Positions 19,876 through 27,124 of a DNA stretch of 32,071 bases are shown here, piece after piece (the stretch's first letter is position 1; each line of letters starts with the position of its first letter). A program made the position numbers and the translations under genes. Source of the DNA: Chloroflexota bacterium (lineage in GTDB: Bacteria > Chloroflexota > Dehalococcoidia > UBA2247 > RBG-13-53-26); contig JAPLHP010000016.1 of assembly GCA_026389585.1 (NCBI GenBank), forward strand, positions 1 to 32,071, read 5' to 3'. The notes beneath the pieces are model-generated. The model was not told the origin of the DNA. It did no database searches and saw only the letters and a list, made by a program, of their open reading frames with translations.

Positions 19876-21171
19876 GTGCCAAAATACTATATTTGGACTA
19901 TTGGTTGTCAGATGAATAAGGCCGATTCGGACTGTATGGCCAACTACCTGGAGCATTCAGGGTACTCTCGCACAGAGATGGCTGATGAGGCTGAGGTGAT
20001 TTTGCTCAATAGCTGCGTGGTGCGTCAGAATGCAGAGGATAAAGTAATCAACAAGCTCAACTCCCTCAGGGGTCTGAAGAGGAGGTCTCCAGGTGCGGTC
20101 ATCGCTCTCACTGGCTGTATGGTTGGCTCTGAAATCGACGACCTTAGTAAGCGCTTCCCCTGGGTTGACCTTTTCTTTCGGCCACAGCAATGGGAAGTCT
20201 TCTTCCAATGGGCTGGAAGCCACGGATTAGGCAGCGCCGACAACAAGGGCTTTCTCACCCCTCAGCGACCTCCTGTGAGTGAGTTGATTCCGATCATGCA
20301 TGGTTGCGATAGTTTCTGCTCCTATTGCGTTGTGCCCTATCGCCGCGGAAGGGCGAAGAGCCGTGACCTGCATGAGATCTGCTGTCAGGTAGAAGCGCTC
20401 GTTCAGCGTGGTGTGAAGGAAGTCACCTTGCTTGGTCAAATTGTCGATTCCTATGGCCTTGACCTGCCCTCAAGGCCTGATCTGGCGGATTTATTGGCAG
20501 AACTGAACAAAATCGAAGGACTTCTGCGAATACGCTTTCTGACCAACCATCCAAACTACATGAGCCACAAGCTTATCCAGGCGGTGGCTGGACTGGAAAA
20601 GGTCTGCGAGTATATCAGCCTGCCTGTTCAGGCTGGTGACAATGAGGTACTGAAGGCAATGCGGCGTGGCTATACAGTGGAGCATTATTGTGACCTGGTG
20701 GGGCAGATACGCGGAACCATCCCCGATGTTTCATTGAGCACCGATGTGATTGTTGGTTTTCCGGGTGAAACAGAGGAGCAGTTTGCCAGTACCCTGGACA
20801 TCCTGCGGCAGATCAGATTTGATAAAGTCCACATAGCTGCCTACTCGCCCCGGCCTGAGACCATTGCCTTCCGAAAACTTGATGACAATGTCTCTTCTGA
20901 ACGAAAGGAGCTGCGGCGTTTGCAGACTGAAGCTGTACAACAGCGTATAGCCGCCGAAATCAATGCCGACTTTGTGGGCAAGATAGTGGAGGTTCTGGTG
21001 GAGGGCAAGAAAAAGGATAAATGGCAGGGTCGCACTAGAGGGGACAATCTAGTATTCTTTCCGGGCAGTGACAGCCTGGTTGGGCAGTTGGTGATGGTGA
21101 TAGTTGAGAAGACCAGCGCTTTCGCACTGCAGGGCGTGCCACAAGAAAAGATTAAGAATCCAGTAGTTTGA
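19876..21171 (+). CDS. miaB: MiaB-type tRNA methylthiotransferase (431 aa)
   Basis: The N-terminal UPF0004 domain has the three auxiliary-cluster cysteines Cys11, Cys47 and Cys81. The radical SAM motif GCDSFCSYCVVPYRRG provides Cys144, Cys148 and Cys151. The C-terminal 65 residues look like the TRAM RNA-binding domain. MiaB adds a methylthio group to N6-isopentenyl-A37 in tRNAs reading UNN codons, using two SAM and two Fe-S clusters. A related RimO or MtaB assignment is less likely given the overall block pattern. The start is GTG 19876 with GAGGT upstream. Its 3' end overlaps the DUF5343-type gene on the other strand by 20 bp. Confidence 0.88.
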   Translation: MPKYYIWTIGCQMNKADSDCMANYLEHSGYSRTEMADEAEVILLNSCVVRQNAEDKVINKLNSLRGLKRRSPGAVIALTGCMVGSEIDDLSKRFPWVDLFFRPQQWEVFFQWAGSHGLGSADNKGFLTPQRPPVSELIPIMHGCDSFCSYCVVPYRRGRAKSRDLHEICCQVEALVQRGVKEVTLLGQIVDSYGLDLPSRPDLADLLAELNKIEGLLRIRFLTNHPNYMSHKLIQAVAGLEKVCEYISLPVQAGDNEVLKAMRRGYTVEHYCDLVGQIRGTIPDVSLSTDVIVGFPGETEEQFASTLDILRQIRFDKVHIAAYSPRPETIAFRKLDDNVSSERKELRRLQTEAVQQRIAAEINADFVGKIVEVLVEGKKKDKWQGRTRGDNLVFFPGSDSLVGQLVMVIVEKTSAFALQGVPQEKIKNPVV

Positions 21172-21931
21172 CGGAGTTCTTGCCCAGGAACTCCTTCATA
21201 GAGTCAAACCATCTGGCCTTCAGGTCGTCTGGCCACTCGGTATTGAAGGAAGGGAACTTATCCATTAGAAACATCATGGTCTGAAGACGGTCGAACCATT
21301 CTCCCCGGACATCTTTAGGCCAATTTGGATCAAAGTCTGGCAATTTGGCAGCCAGATAGTTCGATCCCAGCAGCCCGGCTTTGTCCAATTGACGCCTGGG
21401 GGATGATGAAAGAGAGGGCGATCTCCTTTTTCGGGGTGGGAGTGCCTGAGGGCTGGCTTTCTGAGATGTCCCTACCCTGGACCTGGTCAATAGGTTGGGC
21501 GATAACCCTATGCCTGAGTCCTTAGCAAGAGCCAGGAAAAAGGAAAGGCACTTGTTGCCTACATTATTATCAGCGCCGAACTGGCGGAAGCACTCTTTTA
21601 CCTGCCCCAGCGTAGCGTGTTCCAGATCCAGGCCTCCGAATACCGGCTTATAAGCTGCCTCAGCTATTTCTCTCAGCAGCAATCTGCGGTTTTCTCCCTC
21701 TGTCTTTACCAGGTTCAAGAGCTTATCAGTTGGTTCATTCCCGGGGCCGATCAGATCCAGGAAAGAAAGGGTGGCCCTGACAGTCAACGCTGTGCTTTCG
21801 GACACCCCGAGGTCCTTAAGATAACTTTGATCCAACTGCAACGGAACGTGCTGGTATAGAGCTCCAAGAAGCCTTTGCCAGGTGGCGTAGGTCAAATATG
21901 GTGGCAGACGGTTCTTTCCTCTTGATTTCAT
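21152..21931 (-). CDS. DUF5343-type protein with a C-terminal duplication (259 aa)
   Basis: Residues 10-150 match the pattern I recall for DUF5343: PYLTYATWQRLLGALYQHVP, then a helical block ending LGLIGPGNEPT-like text. The middle (155-185) is basic and Ser/Pro-rich. The C-terminus contains two copies of a WPxDxxxxWFD motif (residues about 205-222 and 233-250), an internal repeat. DUF5343 function is unknown; the domain is thought to be winged-helix-like. A perfect consensus promoter at 21970-21998 drives it, AAGGGAAG lies before the ATG, and it shares the TGAAAT-box region with the divergent FtsZ-like cluster, so it is a candidate regulator of that cluster. Confidence 0.7.
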   Translation of the reverse strand: MKSRGKNRLPPYLTYATWQRLLGALYQHVPLQLDQSYLKDLGVSESTALTVRATLSFLDLIGPGNEPTDKLLNLVKTEGENRRLLLREIAEAAYKPVFGGLDLEHATLGQVKECFRQFGADNNVGNKCLSFFLALAKDSGIGLSPNLLTRSRVGTSQKASPQALPPRKRRSPSLSSSPRRQLDKAGLLGSNYLAAKLPDFDPNWPKDVRGEWFDRLQTMMFLMDKFPSFNTEWPDDLKARWFDSMKEFLGKNSVKLLDS

Positions 21932-21969
21932 AAATTCAGTCTTCCCTTCTCAGTAATCGCCATTTCAGG

Positions 21970-21998
21970 ATTATAGTCCTGGTGAAATGAAATGTCAA
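21970..21998 (-). promoter_or_regulatory. Consensus promoter of the DUF5343-type gene
   Basis: On the minus strand TTGACA (21998-21993) and TATAAT (21975-21970) are separated by exactly 17 bases. The transcript would start near 21963, giving a leader of about 32 nt. Confidence 0.8.
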
Positions 21999-22003
21999 GA
22001 CCA

Positions 22004-22033
22004 TTGACTTATGAAATTATATTTCATTATGAA
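22004..22033 (+). promoter_or_regulatory. Upstream promoter toward the FtsZ-like cluster
   Basis: TTGACT at 22004-22009 and TATGAA at 22028-22033 have an 18 base spacer that is almost filled by the palindrome 22011-22027. A protein bound there would block this promoter. Confidence 0.5.
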
Positions 22034-22125
22034 ATGATACCTGAAATGAAATCATGTGGGCAATGAGGTAAAATTTTAGTGTGAAATTGGCGATATAAAC
22101 AATTTATTTCAATTGTGAAAAGCTA

Positions 22126-22155
22126 TTGACAAGCAATTTTTTTGTGATCTACAAT
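22126..22155 (+). promoter_or_regulatory. Main promoter of the FtsZ-like cluster
   Basis: TTGACA at 22126-22131 and TACAAT at 22150-22155 have an 18 base spacer. A start near 22162 gives a leader of about 120 nt containing a TGAAAT box and the palindrome at 22182-22197. Confidence 0.65.
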
Positions 22156-22181
22156 GGCTTGTCTGTGAAATTCCCCTAGTC

Positions 22182-22197
22182 ACCTAGGTACCAAGGT
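22182..22197. repeat. 16 bp near-perfect palindrome in the leader
   Basis: ACCTAGGTACCAAGGT pairs with its own complement in seven of eight positions. It lies just after the predicted start site and could be an operator or a leader hairpin. Confidence 0.45.
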
Positions 22198-22281
22198 GGA
22201 TTTAGAGGGAAAGTGGGAAACAGGAATGAAGATAGGAATCAAGAAAATAAATACAAGTAGAAAATCGAGAAGGAGGAGCAA

Positions 22282-23325
22282 GTGAACGAAAGAGACGCAA
22301 GGGTTCCTGCGCCCATTAAGGTGATTGGTGTGGGTGGGGGTGGATGCAATGCTGTACGGCGGATGCTGGTGAAGCCGACGCCGGGGGTCCAGTATATAGT
22401 ATGTAATACTGATATCAAATCGCTGGATTCCTGCCCCACCGATGTACTGTCGGTGCAGATTGGTGAGCATATCACCCGTGGCTTCGGGGCAGGGGGAGAC
22501 ATGGCGGTAGGGGCAAAGGCTGCGGAGGAGGGTCGTTTTCTATTAAAGAGGGCACTTAAGGATGCCGAGTTGGTATTCGTCACGGCTGGCATGGGTGGAG
22601 GCACGGGGACAGGCGCAGCTCCAGTTGTAGCTCAGATAGCCAAGGAAAGCAAGGCCTTGGTCATCGCCGTAGTAACCACCCCATTCTCTTTTGAAGGGAA
22701 GAGACGTTTCTCACTGGCTCTAACGGGTATCCGCAGACTCAGACCGGAAGTAGATAACCTGATCATCATTCACAATGACCGGCTGCTGCAATTCTGTGAG
22801 TCAAACGTCCCAACGCAACATGCATTTTCTGTTGCCGATGAAGCTGTTTCCGAGGGTATTTTGGCCGTATCTAACCTGGTTAATGTATCAGGGGAGATCA
22901 ATGTTGACCTGGCTGATGTGAAAGCCGTCATGGGTATTCCTGGTGGTGCACTCCTTGCCATTGGCAAAGCAGATAGCAAGAGCCGCTACCCGGCGCAGGA
23001 AGCAGCAGAGCAAGCCATTCAGAACCCGTTGCTGGATATAGACATAAAGGGAGCCAAAGGCATCCTGTTCAATTTCAGTGGTGGCCCGGATCTAACACTG
23101 GGTGAGGTAAACGATGCGGCCAATCTCATTGCCAGGGAAGTGGATAGCAGTGCCCTGATGTTCTTTGGTATGTCCACCCCCAGCGAAGAAATGAGGAATG
23201 TGGTGAAGATCACGCTCATTGCCACTGGCATACATCCGCCTTTGCCCACCAGCTGGCTGGCTGAAATGGGAGAGACTATTAAAGAGGTGCTAACAGGGCA
23301 CAAGAGGCCTGGTTCATATCACTAG
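22282..23325 (+). CDS. FtsZ-like GTPase 1 (347 aa)
   Basis: [17 protein letters not shown] (residues 12-28) is the first nucleotide loop, GMGGGTGTG (103-111) the tubulin/FtsZ signature, HNDRLL near 164 the T6 contact and NVDLAD (207-212) the T7 loop that completes GTP hydrolysis, so assembly and GTPase activity should be intact. FtsZ itself usually continues into a long linker ending in a conserved peptide that binds FtsA/ZipA. Here the protein ends about 30 residues after the core with a short tail (TSWLAEMGETIKEVL) that could be an amphipathic helix. The start is GTG 22282 after AGGAGG. It is first in a cluster with two membrane hairpin genes following. A role in non-divisional filaments is inferred. 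Confidence 0.9.
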   Translation: MNERDARVPAPIKVIGVGGGGCNAVRRMLVKPTPGVQYIVCNTDIKSLDSCPTDVLSVQIGEHITRGFGAGGDMAVGAKAAEEGRFLLKRALKDAELVFVTAGMGGGTGTGAAPVVAQIAKESKALVIAVVTTPFSFEGKRRFSLALTGIRRLRPEVDNLIIIHNDRLLQFCESNVPTQHAFSVADEAVSEGILAVSNLVNVSGEINVDLADVKAVMGIPGGALLAIGKADSKSRYPAQEAAEQAIQNPLLDIDIKGAKGILFNFSGGPDLTLGEVNDAANLIAREVDSSALMFFGMSTPSEEMRNVVKITLIATGIHPPLPTSWLAEMGETIKEVLTGHKRPGSYH

Positions 23326-23383
23326 TAGTAGAGGTATAACACAAAATAATGGCTGAATCAGACCGAAAAGGGGGTTAGACGAG

Positions 23384-23578
23384 ATGTCACAGTTGCTATC
23401 ATGGATCAATGCGGTATCGGGGATGATACTCTTCTTTGCCATGTCTAATATAACGACTTGGGTCATCTTCGACTCGCCGCAAGCCAAGATATTCCCCTTC
23501 CTCGTTGGCATACTGCTCCTGGGTAATGCAGTATACCTATCCGTGGCAAAGGGAGAGATCTCGAGCCATCGCAGTTAG
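23384..23578 (+). CDS. Two-helix membrane protein, type a (64 aa)
   Basis: Two hydrophobic helices (about residues 7-22 and 35-54) are joined by a polar loop with Trp and SPQAKIF; the C-terminus carries Lys, His and Arg. The opening LLSW.N...G..LFFAMS.I is shared with the four other small proteins of the cluster, and it is a close paralogue of the protein at 26636. GGGGG precedes the ATG. It follows FtsZ-like 1 by 58 bp. It may anchor or regulate the FtsZ-like filaments at the membrane; this is inferred from gene order only. Confidence 0.75.
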   Translation: MSQLLSWINAVSGMILFFAMSNITTWVIFDSPQAKIFPFLVGILLLGNAVYLSVAKGEISSHRS

Positions 23579-23589
23579 GGGGTCATGAA

Positions 23590-23793
23590 ATGGCACGTTT
23601 GTTAAGCTGGGCCAACATGCTGGTGGGTGGACTGTTATTGTTTGCACTTTCAGACATAGCAAGCTGGTCCTGGTTTTCGGCCCCCGCCGCCAGGCTGATT
23701 GTCTTTGTTCTAAGCGTGCTGCTGGTAGGGAATGCAGTTATCCTCTCGTTTGGAAGCGAAGGACAATGGGCACGGCGGGATGGAGTGGCCTAG
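23590..23793 (+). CDS. Two-helix membrane protein, type b (67 aa)
   Basis: The protein begins RLLSWANMLVGGLLLFALSDIASWSW, then FSAPAARL and a second helix ending VGNAVILSFG, with a charged tail. It starts 11 bp after the previous stop, so the two are likely co-translated. It is nearly identical over most of its length to the protein at 26927, including long stretches of DNA, which points to recent duplication or gene conversion. Motif and topology match the other cluster hairpins. Function unknown. Confidence 0.75.
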   Translation: MARLLSWANMLVGGLLLFALSDIASWSWFSAPAARLIVFVLSVLLVGNAVILSFGSEGQWARRDGVA

Positions 23794-23843
23794 CCTCCTT
23801 ATGAACGGCCTCGCGTTTAGGGGAAGCAAGCTTTTGTACTTTT

Positions 23844-23870
23844 GGGGAGAGGGATGGGCTCCCTCTCCCC
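23844..23870 (+). repeat. Perfect 11 bp hairpin between modules 1 and 2
   Basis: GGGGAGAGGGA (23844-23854), loop TGGGC, then the exact complement (23860-23870). No T tract follows, so it is more likely an mRNA-stability or processing hairpin than a classic terminator. It separates the first Z-a-b unit from FtsZ-like 2. Confidence 0.65.
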
Positions 23871-23928
23871 ACAACCAGCGGGGATTCTTGATACATATAT
23901 CTAATGAAAGGAGGGAGAGGCAAGGAGC

Positions 23929-25035
23929 ATGATAGATACAGTGCGGGGAGGCATGAGAGCGGGTGACCGTGCCAGGACACCGGCGCTGATCAAGGTAATA
24001 GGTGTCGGCGGTGGCGGCTGCAATACTGTCCGCCGCATGATGCGCACTCAACAGACTCCTGGCGTGGAATATATTGTCGCTAATACGGATGTAAAGTCCT
24101 TAGACCTGATCCAGGGAGGAGCAATTTCACTGCAAATCGGCGAGCATCTCACCCATGGGTTTGGTGCTGGGGGAGATCCCAAGGTTGGTGGCCAGGCGGC
24201 TGCAGAGGCGGAGTTTCTGCTCAAACGAGCACTCAAGGATGCTGAGCTGGTATTTATCACAGTGGGTATGGGTGGAGGCACAGGCACCGGAGCAGCTCCA
24301 GTAGTAGCTCAAATAGCCAGGACCTGTGGTGGGCTGGTTCTTGCTGTTGTAACCACCCCCTTCTCCTTTGAAGGCAGGAAGCGTGATGAGGTTGCCATGG
24401 CAGGCGTCGATAAGCTTAGGTCAATGGTCGACAACATGATTGTTGTCCACAATGACCGCCTTCTCCAATACTCAGACCACAATGCCAGCATAAGCCAAGC
24501 CTTCGCCATGGCTGACGGGGTGGTGAGCGAGGGGATCTTAAGCGTATCCCAGCTTGTCAATGTCCCCGGAGAGATAAATGTTGACCTGGCTGATGTGAAA
24601 GCCGTAATGAAGCTGGCTGGAACAGCTATCATGGCTATGGGCCATGGTGAGGGACAGCATCCTGCTATGGATGCTGCAGAACAAGCTATCACCAATCCTC
24701 TGCTCGATGTCACCATGAAAGGGGCCAGAGGGCTTCTGGTCAGTTTCTCCGGTGGGCCAGACTTGAGCCTCGGCGAGGTCAATGAGGCAGCGACAGCCAT
24801 CGCCAGAGAAGCTGATCCCAATTGTAATTTCAAGTTCGGCCTGGCTTCCCTCAGTGATGAGCTTCGGGGGAAGGCCAAGGTTACCGTTATTGCTACAGGC
24901 ATAAGAGCATCAGGCATAAGAACATCGTCGTCTTCGTCTTCGCCGCCACCCTCTATGACCTCGACGACCAAGGGGTTATTCAAGAGCCTGGGACAGCAGA
25001 TCGACAAGGCGACCAAAGATCGCAAATGGTTTTAG
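23929..25035 (+). CDS. FtsZ-like GTPase 2 (368 aa)
   Basis: The same core is present: [17 protein letters not shown] (21-37), GMGGGTGTG (113-121), HNDRLL near 174 and the T7 loop NVDLAD (217-222). The core runs to about residue 325. The tail is the most distinctive of the three: a Ser-run linker (about 332-346) with prolines, then a basic segment TKGLFKSLGQQIDKATKDRK that could form an amphipathic, membrane-touching helix. No canonical FtsZ C-terminal peptide is visible. AAGGAGC lies directly before ATG 23929. Followed after 48 bp by a single membrane hairpin gene (type c). Confidence 0.9.
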   Translation: MIDTVRGGMRAGDRARTPALIKVIGVGGGGCNTVRRMMRTQQTPGVEYIVANTDVKSLDLIQGGAISLQIGEHLTHGFGAGGDPKVGGQAAAEAEFLLKRALKDAELVFITVGMGGGTGTGAAPVVAQIARTCGGLVLAVVTTPFSFEGRKRDEVAMAGVDKLRSMVDNMIVVHNDRLLQYSDHNASISQAFAMADGVVSEGILSVSQLVNVPGEINVDLADVKAVMKLAGTAIMAMGHGEGQHPAMDAAEQAITNPLLDVTMKGARGLLVSFSGGPDLSLGEVNEAATAIAREADPNCNFKFGLASLSDELRGKAKVTVIATGIRASGIRTSSSSSSPPPSMTSTTKGLFKSLGQQIDKATKDRKWF

Positions 25036-25083
25036 TTGAGACTTACTAGGGAAGTTTGAGCAATAAAGGAGGAGGGATTTACT

Positions 25084-25299
25084 ATGGCGCGTGTGCTAGG
25101 TATGGTTAATGTGGTTATTGGATTCTTCCTGTTAGTGCTGGTCTTGTCAGGGGTATTCAGCCAGGTGTTGTCACATATATCAGGCTGGAACCACTTCGAC
25201 AGCATGGGGGCTAAGGTGGTTGTTTGTATTGCCGGCGTCTTGGCCCTTGTCAGCTCCGGTTATCTCGTTCTCGGACAGGGACGACGAGAGAACAGATAA
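25084..25299 (+). CDS. Two-helix membrane protein, type c (71 aa)
   Basis: A divergent member of the same small family: it keeps the N-terminal [LV][LM]..N...G..LL motif and a second hydrophobic segment (VVVCIAGVLALVSSGYLVL) but has a longer, His-containing loop and a C-terminal RRENR. AAGGAGGAGGG precedes the ATG. It pairs with FtsZ-like 2, which has the unusual Ser-rich tail, so the hairpin and the tail may have co-evolved; that is speculation. Confidence 0.7.
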   Translation: MARVLGMVNVVIGFFLLVLVLSGVFSQVLSHISGWNHFDSMGAKVVVCIAGVLALVSSGYLVLGQGRRENR

Positions 25300-25456
25300 G
25301 AGGTTACCTGACTAACTGCCCAACGTATGAGTTTCTGCAATTCTAAGAACAGAAGTGGCTGAGACAGTCTGTGTGTCAAGGCATGGAGAAGCTCCTCTTT
25401 ACTAGTCCCGTGTGGAGGGGGAAGAGACTATTAATAGGATGGAGGAAATGCCAAAG

Positions 25457-26554
25457 ATGGAAGAGGCGGAGAAGACATTAAGAGTGGGGGATGGTGTCAG
25501 GGCGATAGCGCACATCAAGGTTATTGGGGTAGGCGGTGGTGGCTGCAATGCTGTCCGTCGGATGATGTACGAGCATACGCTCAGAGGGGTGGATTACATT
25601 GTGGTCAACACCGACATTAAGTCCCTGGAGCTAGCATCACATACCCAGTCTGTCCAGTATTCCATCCAGATTGGTTCTCATCTCACTGAGGGTTTTGGGG
25701 CAGGAGGTGAGCCCAAGGTCGGTGAATTGGCCGCAATGGAAAGCCGCATGGCTTTACAGAAGGTCATTAGAGGGGCTGATTTGGTATTCATTACTGCCGG
25801 CATGGGTGGCGGCACGGGCACTGGTTCAGCTCCGGTAGTGGCTGATATAGCCAGAGAGAGTGGTGCCCTTGTTGTCGCTGTAGTTACCACCCCGTTCTCC
25901 TTCGAGGGCAACAAGAGAACAGAGGTTGCCTTTACTGGCCTCCGTCGTCTTATGGAGAAGGTGAATAGCACTATCATTGTCCCCAACGATCACCTTCTCC
26001 GCTTGGGAGATCATGATGTCCCGATTCAAAAAGCCTTTGCCGCAGCAGATCGGGTGGTGGCAGAGGGGATCATGTCCATATCAGAGCTGATTAATATCCC
26101 TGGAGAGATAAACGTGGATTTGGCTGATGTCAAGAGGGTTATGGGTATTCCGGGAGTAGCCCTCATGGCTACAGGGTGGGGGAAGGGTGCCAATGGAGCG
26201 GAACAGGCAGCAGAAGAGGTTATCTATGAACCCCTGCTCGAAACTCATGTAAATGGTGCCAAGGGTGTTCTTTTCTGTTTCTCCGGTGGCCCGGACTTGA
26301 CCCTTGGAGGAGTGGAGAAGGCAGCCTCTCTCATTTCCAAGCATGTCGACCCTCGTGCCCTTATCTTCTTTGGTATTAACCTGCCCAGGGAGGAGTTAAT
26401 CGGCCAGGTAAAAATCAATCTGGTAGCTACGGGTATAAGGCCGTCAGTAGAAGGCAATTGGTTATCCGGAGTCAAGCAAAACTTGAAGAGCACTGCGGCT
26501 CAGGCTCAGCCGAGCAAACTCACCAGATTGGGTATGGGATATGCTTCAACATAG
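25457..26554 (+). CDS. FtsZ-like GTPase 3 (about 365 aa)
   Basis: The frame opens at GTG 25412. I place the start at ATG 25457, where GGAGG lies 11 bases upstream and the leader before [17 protein letters not shown] becomes 19 residues, like the other two paralogues; ATG 25439 and GTG 25412 are alternatives. The signature GMGGGTGTG and the T7 loop NVDLAD are intact; S replaces A in the usual GAAP. The tail resembles FtsZ-like 1 ([12 protein letters not shown], a possible amphipathic helix) followed by a basic stretch, again without the FtsZ C-terminal peptide. Membrane hairpins a' and b' follow. Confidence 0.88.
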
Positions 26555-26635
26555 AGACCGAAGTATACCCTGCGCATCGGGTGAGAAATAAGAAGGGGAT
26601 GCAAAGTAATTAGTATGGAAACGGGAGGTTAGACG

Positions 26636-26833
26636 ATGGCACAGGTAATGTCATGGCTCAACATGATGACGGGGTTGATACTCTTCTTTGCCATGTCCGG
26701 TATAAGCCAGGATTGGGTTATGTTCTCCAATCCGCAAGCCAAGATATTTCCCTTTGTGCTGGCCATATTACTCCTGGTGAATGCGGTGTATCTCGCCCTG
26801 GCAAGAGGGGAATTCTGGGCCCGCCGCCGTTAA
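26636..26833 (+). CDS. Two-helix membrane protein, type a' (65 aa)
   Basis: Paralogue of the protein at 23384: MSW.N...G.ILFFAMS.I, loop with NPQAKIFPF, second helix ILLLVNAVYLA and an Arg-rich C-terminus (ARRR). GGGAGG precedes the ATG. It follows FtsZ-like 3 by 81 bp as in module 1. Its conservation supports a real gene and a shared function with the type a protein. Confidence 0.75.
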   Translation: MAQVMSWLNMMTGLILFFAMSGISQDWVMFSNPQAKIFPFVLAILLLVNAVYLALARGEFWARRR

Positions 26834-26926
26834 GTAGCCTTAAGTCGCGATGCGCTATTTCTAAGATGTAGAGAGCACACTGATGGTGCTTAATTCATTG
26901 AGCTAATTGTAAAAGGAGGTTATCAG

Positions 26927-27124
26927 ATGTCACGTTTACTAAGCTTTGCCAACCTGCTGGTGGGTGGACTGTTATTGTTTGCCCTTTCAGACATAGCCAG
27001 TTGGTCCTGGTTTTCAGCTCCAGCCGCTAGGCTGATTGCCTTTATTCTCAGCGTGGTGCTGGTGGGGAACGCAGTAATCCTCTCGTTTGGAAGTGAAGAG
27101 CCGCAGAGCAGAATGGCCTCCTAG
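26927..27124 (+). CDS. Two-helix membrane protein, type b' (65 aa)
   Basis: Near-copy of the type b protein at 23590 (FANLLVGGLLLFALSDIASW, then FSAPAARLIAF), diverging only in the first few residues and the C-terminus. The genes share long identical DNA runs. AAAGGAGG precedes the ATG. This completes a second Z-a-b module. Confidence 0.75.
   Translation: MSRLLSFANLLVGGLLLFALSDIASWSWFSAPAARLIAFILSVVLVGNAVILSFGSEEPQSRMAS

Follow-up and report, generated by a model that had tools for sequence, protein, structure and literature searches.

A conserved TGAAAT-box array between a DUF5343-type gene and a triple ftsZ cluster in Dehalococcoidia as a putative operator of division genes

Bacteria of the class Dehalococcoidia are difficult to cultivate, and little is known about the control of FtsZ in them. 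In other bacteria a point of comparison is MraZ, whose gene is usually followed by rsmH. MraZ is a repressor of its own gene and of further genes of the dcw cluster (Eraso 2014, cited in PMC8475190), and in Mollicutes its site has the form (AAAGTGKN3)3 (PMC5282649). The locus that we describe here is like the MraZ system in that it has a locus-linked, here predicted, DNA-binding protein, and short repeated words in the promoter before division genes. That protein, of DUF5343 type, is also linked to division genes, which are ftsZ here and ftsA-ftsZ, ftsZ or rsmH elsewhere. The DUF5343 protein, however, has no MraZ domain, its gene faces away from the division genes, and the repeated word TGAAAT occurs in both orientations at irregular steps, whereas the MraZ operator is a regular direct repeat. 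By analogy, our best reading is that the DUF5343 protein and the TGAAAT array would work like MraZ and its boxes, yet be unrelated to MraZ. A second point of comparison is BrxA, which is similar to type IIS recognition domains, has two helix-turn-helix motifs placed for DNA binding, and binds double-stranded DNA (PMC9240713).

The window, meaning the whole 32,071-nucleotide stretch that we analysed, carries three tandem ftsZ genes on its plus strand (ftsZ1, 22282-23325; ftsZ2, 23929-25035; ftsZ3, 25412-26554). A preliminary description called the cluster FtsZ-like, and the products can now be named true FtsZ by the equivalog TIGR00065, with scores of 345, 339 and 346 bits over a cut-off of 295. 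The genome has no other Tubulin-family gene, and ftsZ1 is 80-87% identical in relatives. From 22282 to 27124 the three genes are interleaved with genes for five hydrophobic proteins of 64-71 aa, assigned to the membrane by hydropathy and forming two similar pairs and one single protein: two (64 and 67 aa, 23384-23793) between ftsZ1 and ftsZ2, one (71 aa, 25084-25299) between ftsZ2 and ftsZ3, and two (65 aa each, 26636-27124) after ftsZ3, all on the plus strand. The last pair duplicates the first, with 58% and 84% identity, and the three proteins encoded between ftsZ genes are conserved in relatives. Complete loci share the order DUF5343, ftsZ1, two small membrane proteins, ftsZ2, small membrane protein, ftsZ3, from which the small open reading frames detected in one relative deviate slightly. 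FtsA was sought in the window's genome and not found; among family members it went undetected in exactly those with the triple-ftsZ locus, and the two members that lack the locus (G003 and G005) have it. Because no FtsA was found and the three ftsZ genes are the only members of the Tubulin family, the five small hydrophobic proteins may be membrane anchors of FtsZ. What we have, then, is a division locus with three FtsZ proteins, small membrane proteins and no detected FtsA.

Upstream of this cluster, the region between the start codons of the DUF5343-type gene (21152-21931, minus strand) and ftsZ1 spans 21932-22281, and we think it very likely that it is a genuine regulatory region of cell division. 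The preliminary description reported about eleven copies of TGAAAT/ATTTCA here, and our count agrees: 11 exact hexamers lie within 210 bp (21962-22171), at 21962(-), 21983, 21988, 22012, 22021(-), 22030, 22042, 22047, 22082, 22106(-) and 22166, where (-) marks minus-strand copies. Steps between boxes are irregular (5, 12, 9, 24, 35 bp) and both orientations are used. A 12th copy, at 21925, overlies the ATGAAATC start of the DUF5343 gene. Counting coding and intergenic DNA together, the whole genome (1.93 Mb in 103 contigs) holds 1048 copies, or an expected 0.11 per 210 bp, and the density within the array is about 96 times that of the genome; the genome-wide count that had been proposed as a check on enrichment thus found the word far from equally frequent elsewhere. 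Same-strand pairs no more than 30 bp apart occur at 12 places in the genome, five of them in the array, and both genomic occurrences of the exact tandem TGAAATGAAAT are in the array as well. The remaining pairs that we looked at are mostly intragenic. A search of the genome by such pairs and by tandem TGAAATGAAAT found no second array, so we rejected a genome-wide TGAAAT regulon; confinement of the array to this locus suggests a locus-specific regulator. The TGAAAT papers that a literature search listed had, judged by title and abstract, no relation to this system.

Among 100 related genomes searched for the divergent DUF5343/ftsZ pair, six relatives have it, all of the window's family, and together with the window they form our seven-genome comparison. 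With the window excluded, TGAAAT is the most over-represented hexamer in the intergenic regions of these six (18 copies against 3.5 expected, a level reached in 0 of 1000 shuffles). In the core alignment, the columns of nine window boxes have a mean pairwise identity of 0.67, compared with 0.42 for other columns (p = 6e-8); no circular shift of the boxes reaches as high, and the promoter hexamers stand at 0.88. Box positions relative to both promoters are constant to 1-2 bp, the conserved ones lying at -10 and -5 (in the spacer) and at about +38, +50, +55 and +66 relative to the DUF5343 -35 element. Midway between the promoters is a plus-strand trio, TGAAAT-N6-TGAAATGAAAT (22030-22052), with a 12-bp and then a 5-bp step, which recurs at +37 to +39, +49 to +51 and +54 to +56 from that -35 in most of the seven genomes, usually with at most one mismatch. 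A minus-strand box at 22106-22111, 19-20 bp upstream of the ftsZ1 -35, is found in all seven with at most one mismatch. The boxes at 22012, 22021, 22082 and 22166 are either less well conserved or confined to the window's genome, and the array is sparser in more distant members, g3 and g5 having 1-3 exact copies.

The two divergent units each have a conserved promoter. The perfect TTGACA-17-TATAAT promoter claimed for the DUF5343-type gene stands: on the minus strand, with TTGACA at 21998-21993 and TATAAT at 21975-21970, it matches the consensus at 12/12 positions and carries two boxes in its spacer. Its -35 is kept in seven of seven genomes and reads TTGACAT in each, such that a one-mismatch box (TGACAT) overlaps it, and the spacer box at -10 has at most one mismatch in six of the seven. 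Of two promoters proposed toward ftsZ, one held up, the plus-strand TTGACA-18-TACAAT of ftsZ1 (22126-22155; TTGACA 22126-22131, TACAAT 22150-22155), which scores 11/12 and is conserved in all seven genomes. The other, with TTGACT at 22004, matches at 9/12 positions; relatives lack its -35, and we reject it as a promoter. With it goes the idea of a palindrome-filled promoter spacer, even as the 17-bp inverted repeat itself, ATGAAAT-TAT-ATTTCAT (22011-22027), is present as described; at its site the alignment has ATGCAATTNNANNGCAT-like dyads in the g2 relatives. Similarly, GTGAAATT does occur at both 22081 and 22165, 84 bp apart, but relatives have no box aligned with that at 22165 and at most a partial one at 22081, and looping between them is rejected as a general mechanism. 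There is good support for joint control of both divergent units, as the boxes were found neither equally common elsewhere nor unconserved when upstream regions of homologous clusters were compared.

Which protein might read these boxes? The preliminary description names none. The adjacent DUF5343 gene is the best regulator candidate, and we consider it probable, with some reserve, that the 210 bp are an autoregulatory, ftsZ-controlling operator array for which the DUF5343 protein is the putative binder. A shared array would then serve both divergent promoters, and the protein would bind the asymmetric TGAAAT as separate units in either orientation. Occupied boxes in the spacer and -35 of the DUF5343 promoter would shut off its own transcription, whereas the box upstream of the ftsZ1 -35, together with the central trio, could modulate the operon of ftsZ and small membrane proteins. 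Activators often bind at such a position upstream of a -35, and the effect on ftsZ could be activation, or repression by coating. The central trio could nucleate cooperative binding.

The candidate itself is a protein of 259 aa, with a predicted two-helix-turn-helix domain (residues about 1-150), a basic linker (151-195; 9 K+R against 1 D+E) and C-terminal helices. Its sole Pfam match is PF17278 (DUF5343), at 20.5 bits (E 6e-4) and below the gathering cut-off of 27 bits. The same family matches eight of eight orthologues at E <= 0.01 (best 6.5e-7), and a homologue from a relative in the class (L045) scores 35 bits, above the cut-off; we therefore call the window protein a divergent relative, or DUF5343-type. 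An AlphaFold model of residues 1-150 has a pLDDT of 89 and a pTM of 0.84. Foldseek returned nothing significant for either the full-length model or the domain model (E about 1 or worse), and a sequence search of solved structures with an orthologue profile was likewise without significant hits. In a VIA structural comparison the domain aligned with BrxA (7zge; Z 5.8, rmsd 4.2, 138 aligned), with the BrxA homologue 3bhw (5.7) and with the DNA-bound type IIS enzyme PaqCI (5.0), values of Z 5-6 being below the level that the tool regards as convincing. These alignments cover about 130-138 residues at 5-12% sequence identity, and below them (Z 3.6 and lower) come winged helices of GntR and DtxR type, matched over residues 14-78. 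Another comparison gave a similar ranking. Like BrxA and the PaqCI-type recognition domains, then, the DUF5343 domain is predicted to be all-helical with two helix-turn-helix motifs over some 138 residues (Z 5.0-5.8), and it may share their DNA-binding fold; it is unlike them in its low identity and its regulatory context, and the scores are weak. By analogy, a monomeric domain reading a short asymmetric word would suit irregular boxes in both orientations. BREX or restriction genes were not identified among the DUF5343 neighbours that we examined, and a literature search for DUF5343 found no paper on the family. PADLOC gave the window protein and the L045 homologue (L045:4950-5639) only a weak match, to the candidate defence family PDC-M34A, so the DUF5343 domain also occurs in suspected defence loci; given the division-gene setting, we set a defence role aside and take the match to reflect a shared domain.

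Another account of the same array is that it is the true operator of a regulator encoded elsewhere, for example one of growth or the cell cycle, and that DUF5343 is just a neighbour under the same control, with a role in division or in the nucleoid. Conservation shows selection on the boxes, not the identity of the binder, and class-wide surveys, in which neighbour genes were named by Pfam, leave room for such an account. In other families of the class, the DUF5343 homologue is divergent to ftsA-ftsZ in four Dehalococcoides/Dehalogenimonas-like genomes (L044-L047), to rsmH followed by ftsA and ftsZ in two others (L048, L049), to ftsZ in L052, and to rsmH at a distance of 1.4-1.5 kb in L064 and L065, a linkage that favours the DUF5343 protein as the regulator. 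Some homologues from further lineages are found apart from division genes, and the protein may thus have additional functions. In the first 60 genomes, linkage to division genes was seen for 12 of 18 DUF5343 hits of about 60 bits or more and for 0 of 11 weaker ones, and it thus marks the closer homologues. A multi-target regulator should, however, leave further arrays in the genome, where we found none. Repeats adjacent to DUF5343 also vary by lineage, a pattern that an autoregulator with sites of its own should produce. Beyond the nearest relatives we saw no enrichment of TGAAAT next to DUF5343, including in ftsA-side regions, where other repeats are found, and we rejected its extension to the ftsA-side regions of distant relatives. 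Upstream of DUF5343 we find TGGCAT (G003), TGCAAT (G022), AGGCAA/ATTGCC (G019), GGACAA (G080) and TGATTA (G051), and a weaker TGGAAT in G027 and G062; a shared word TGNNAT among these other arrays was spotted post hoc. Repeats reach significance (p <= 0.02) in 5 of 20 upstream regions outside the window's family, compared with 1 of 38 control intergenic regions (p = 0.016), a result that is no more than suggestive of lineage-specific arrays upstream of DUF5343 elsewhere in the class. Taken together, we regard a regulator encoded elsewhere as a serious but rather unlikely alternative to binding by the DUF5343 protein.

Less plausible still, and in our view improbable, is that the boxes are mainly architectural, that is, UP-element-like A-tracts and bent AT-rich DNA at a pair of strong divergent promoters, or sites of a nucleoid protein, with no dedicated regulator. 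The array region has a GC content of 34% in a window of 53%, and there are A-tracts within the boxes. Yet dinucleotide-preserving shuffles of the same 210 bp (n = 2000) give a mean of 0.96 and a maximum of 6 copies, so AT-richness alone does not suffice for 11, and the exact word is conserved at fixed places even in relatives whose array region reaches 46-48% GC. The two exact TGAAATGAAAT tandems could be products of slippage, but an origin of the array by chance, or by recent tandem slippage of some short AT-rich word, is highly improbable, given the irregular spacing, the use of two orientations and the conservation across genera, and is contradicted by the shuffles, the hexamer enrichment in relatives and the alignment identity.

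MraZ (PF02381) has no match in the window's genome. Among 60 relatives it is absent from 17 of 29 genomes with a DUF5343 hit and from 2 of 31 without (p = 1.5e-5), and, taking one genome per family and excluding the window's family, from 9 of 19 and 2 of 26 (p = 0.004), counts that include noise from incomplete genomes. We find it tempting to speculate, though the idea is more doubtful than the operator proposal for this one locus, that DUF5343-type proteins could be a Dehalococcoidia family of division-gene regulators that replaces MraZ, with a two-helix-turn-helix, type IIS-like domain that would read a short asymmetric word as a unit and an array that would drift together with the protein by lineage. 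The locus bears on FtsZ control in cells that have neither MraZ nor FtsA, and, if our proposal is true, a family without an assigned function would gain a DNA-binding role and a named operator.

Some features of the DUF5343 neighbourhood deserve mention in their own right. In two AT-rich genomes (L054, L055) groEL is on one side of the DUF5343 gene and a divergent ParB-HTH gene, in place of ftsZ, on the other. In L044 (at about 4690), L045, L046 and L047, the space separating the DUF5343 gene from ftsA holds a conserved open reading frame (MGTAI-YQKLMTEIV...) about 71 codons long. In the window, a radical SAM/TRAM (MiaB-like) gene (19876-21171) converges with the DUF5343 gene and overlaps it by about 20 bp, a pairing that is kept in four relatives.
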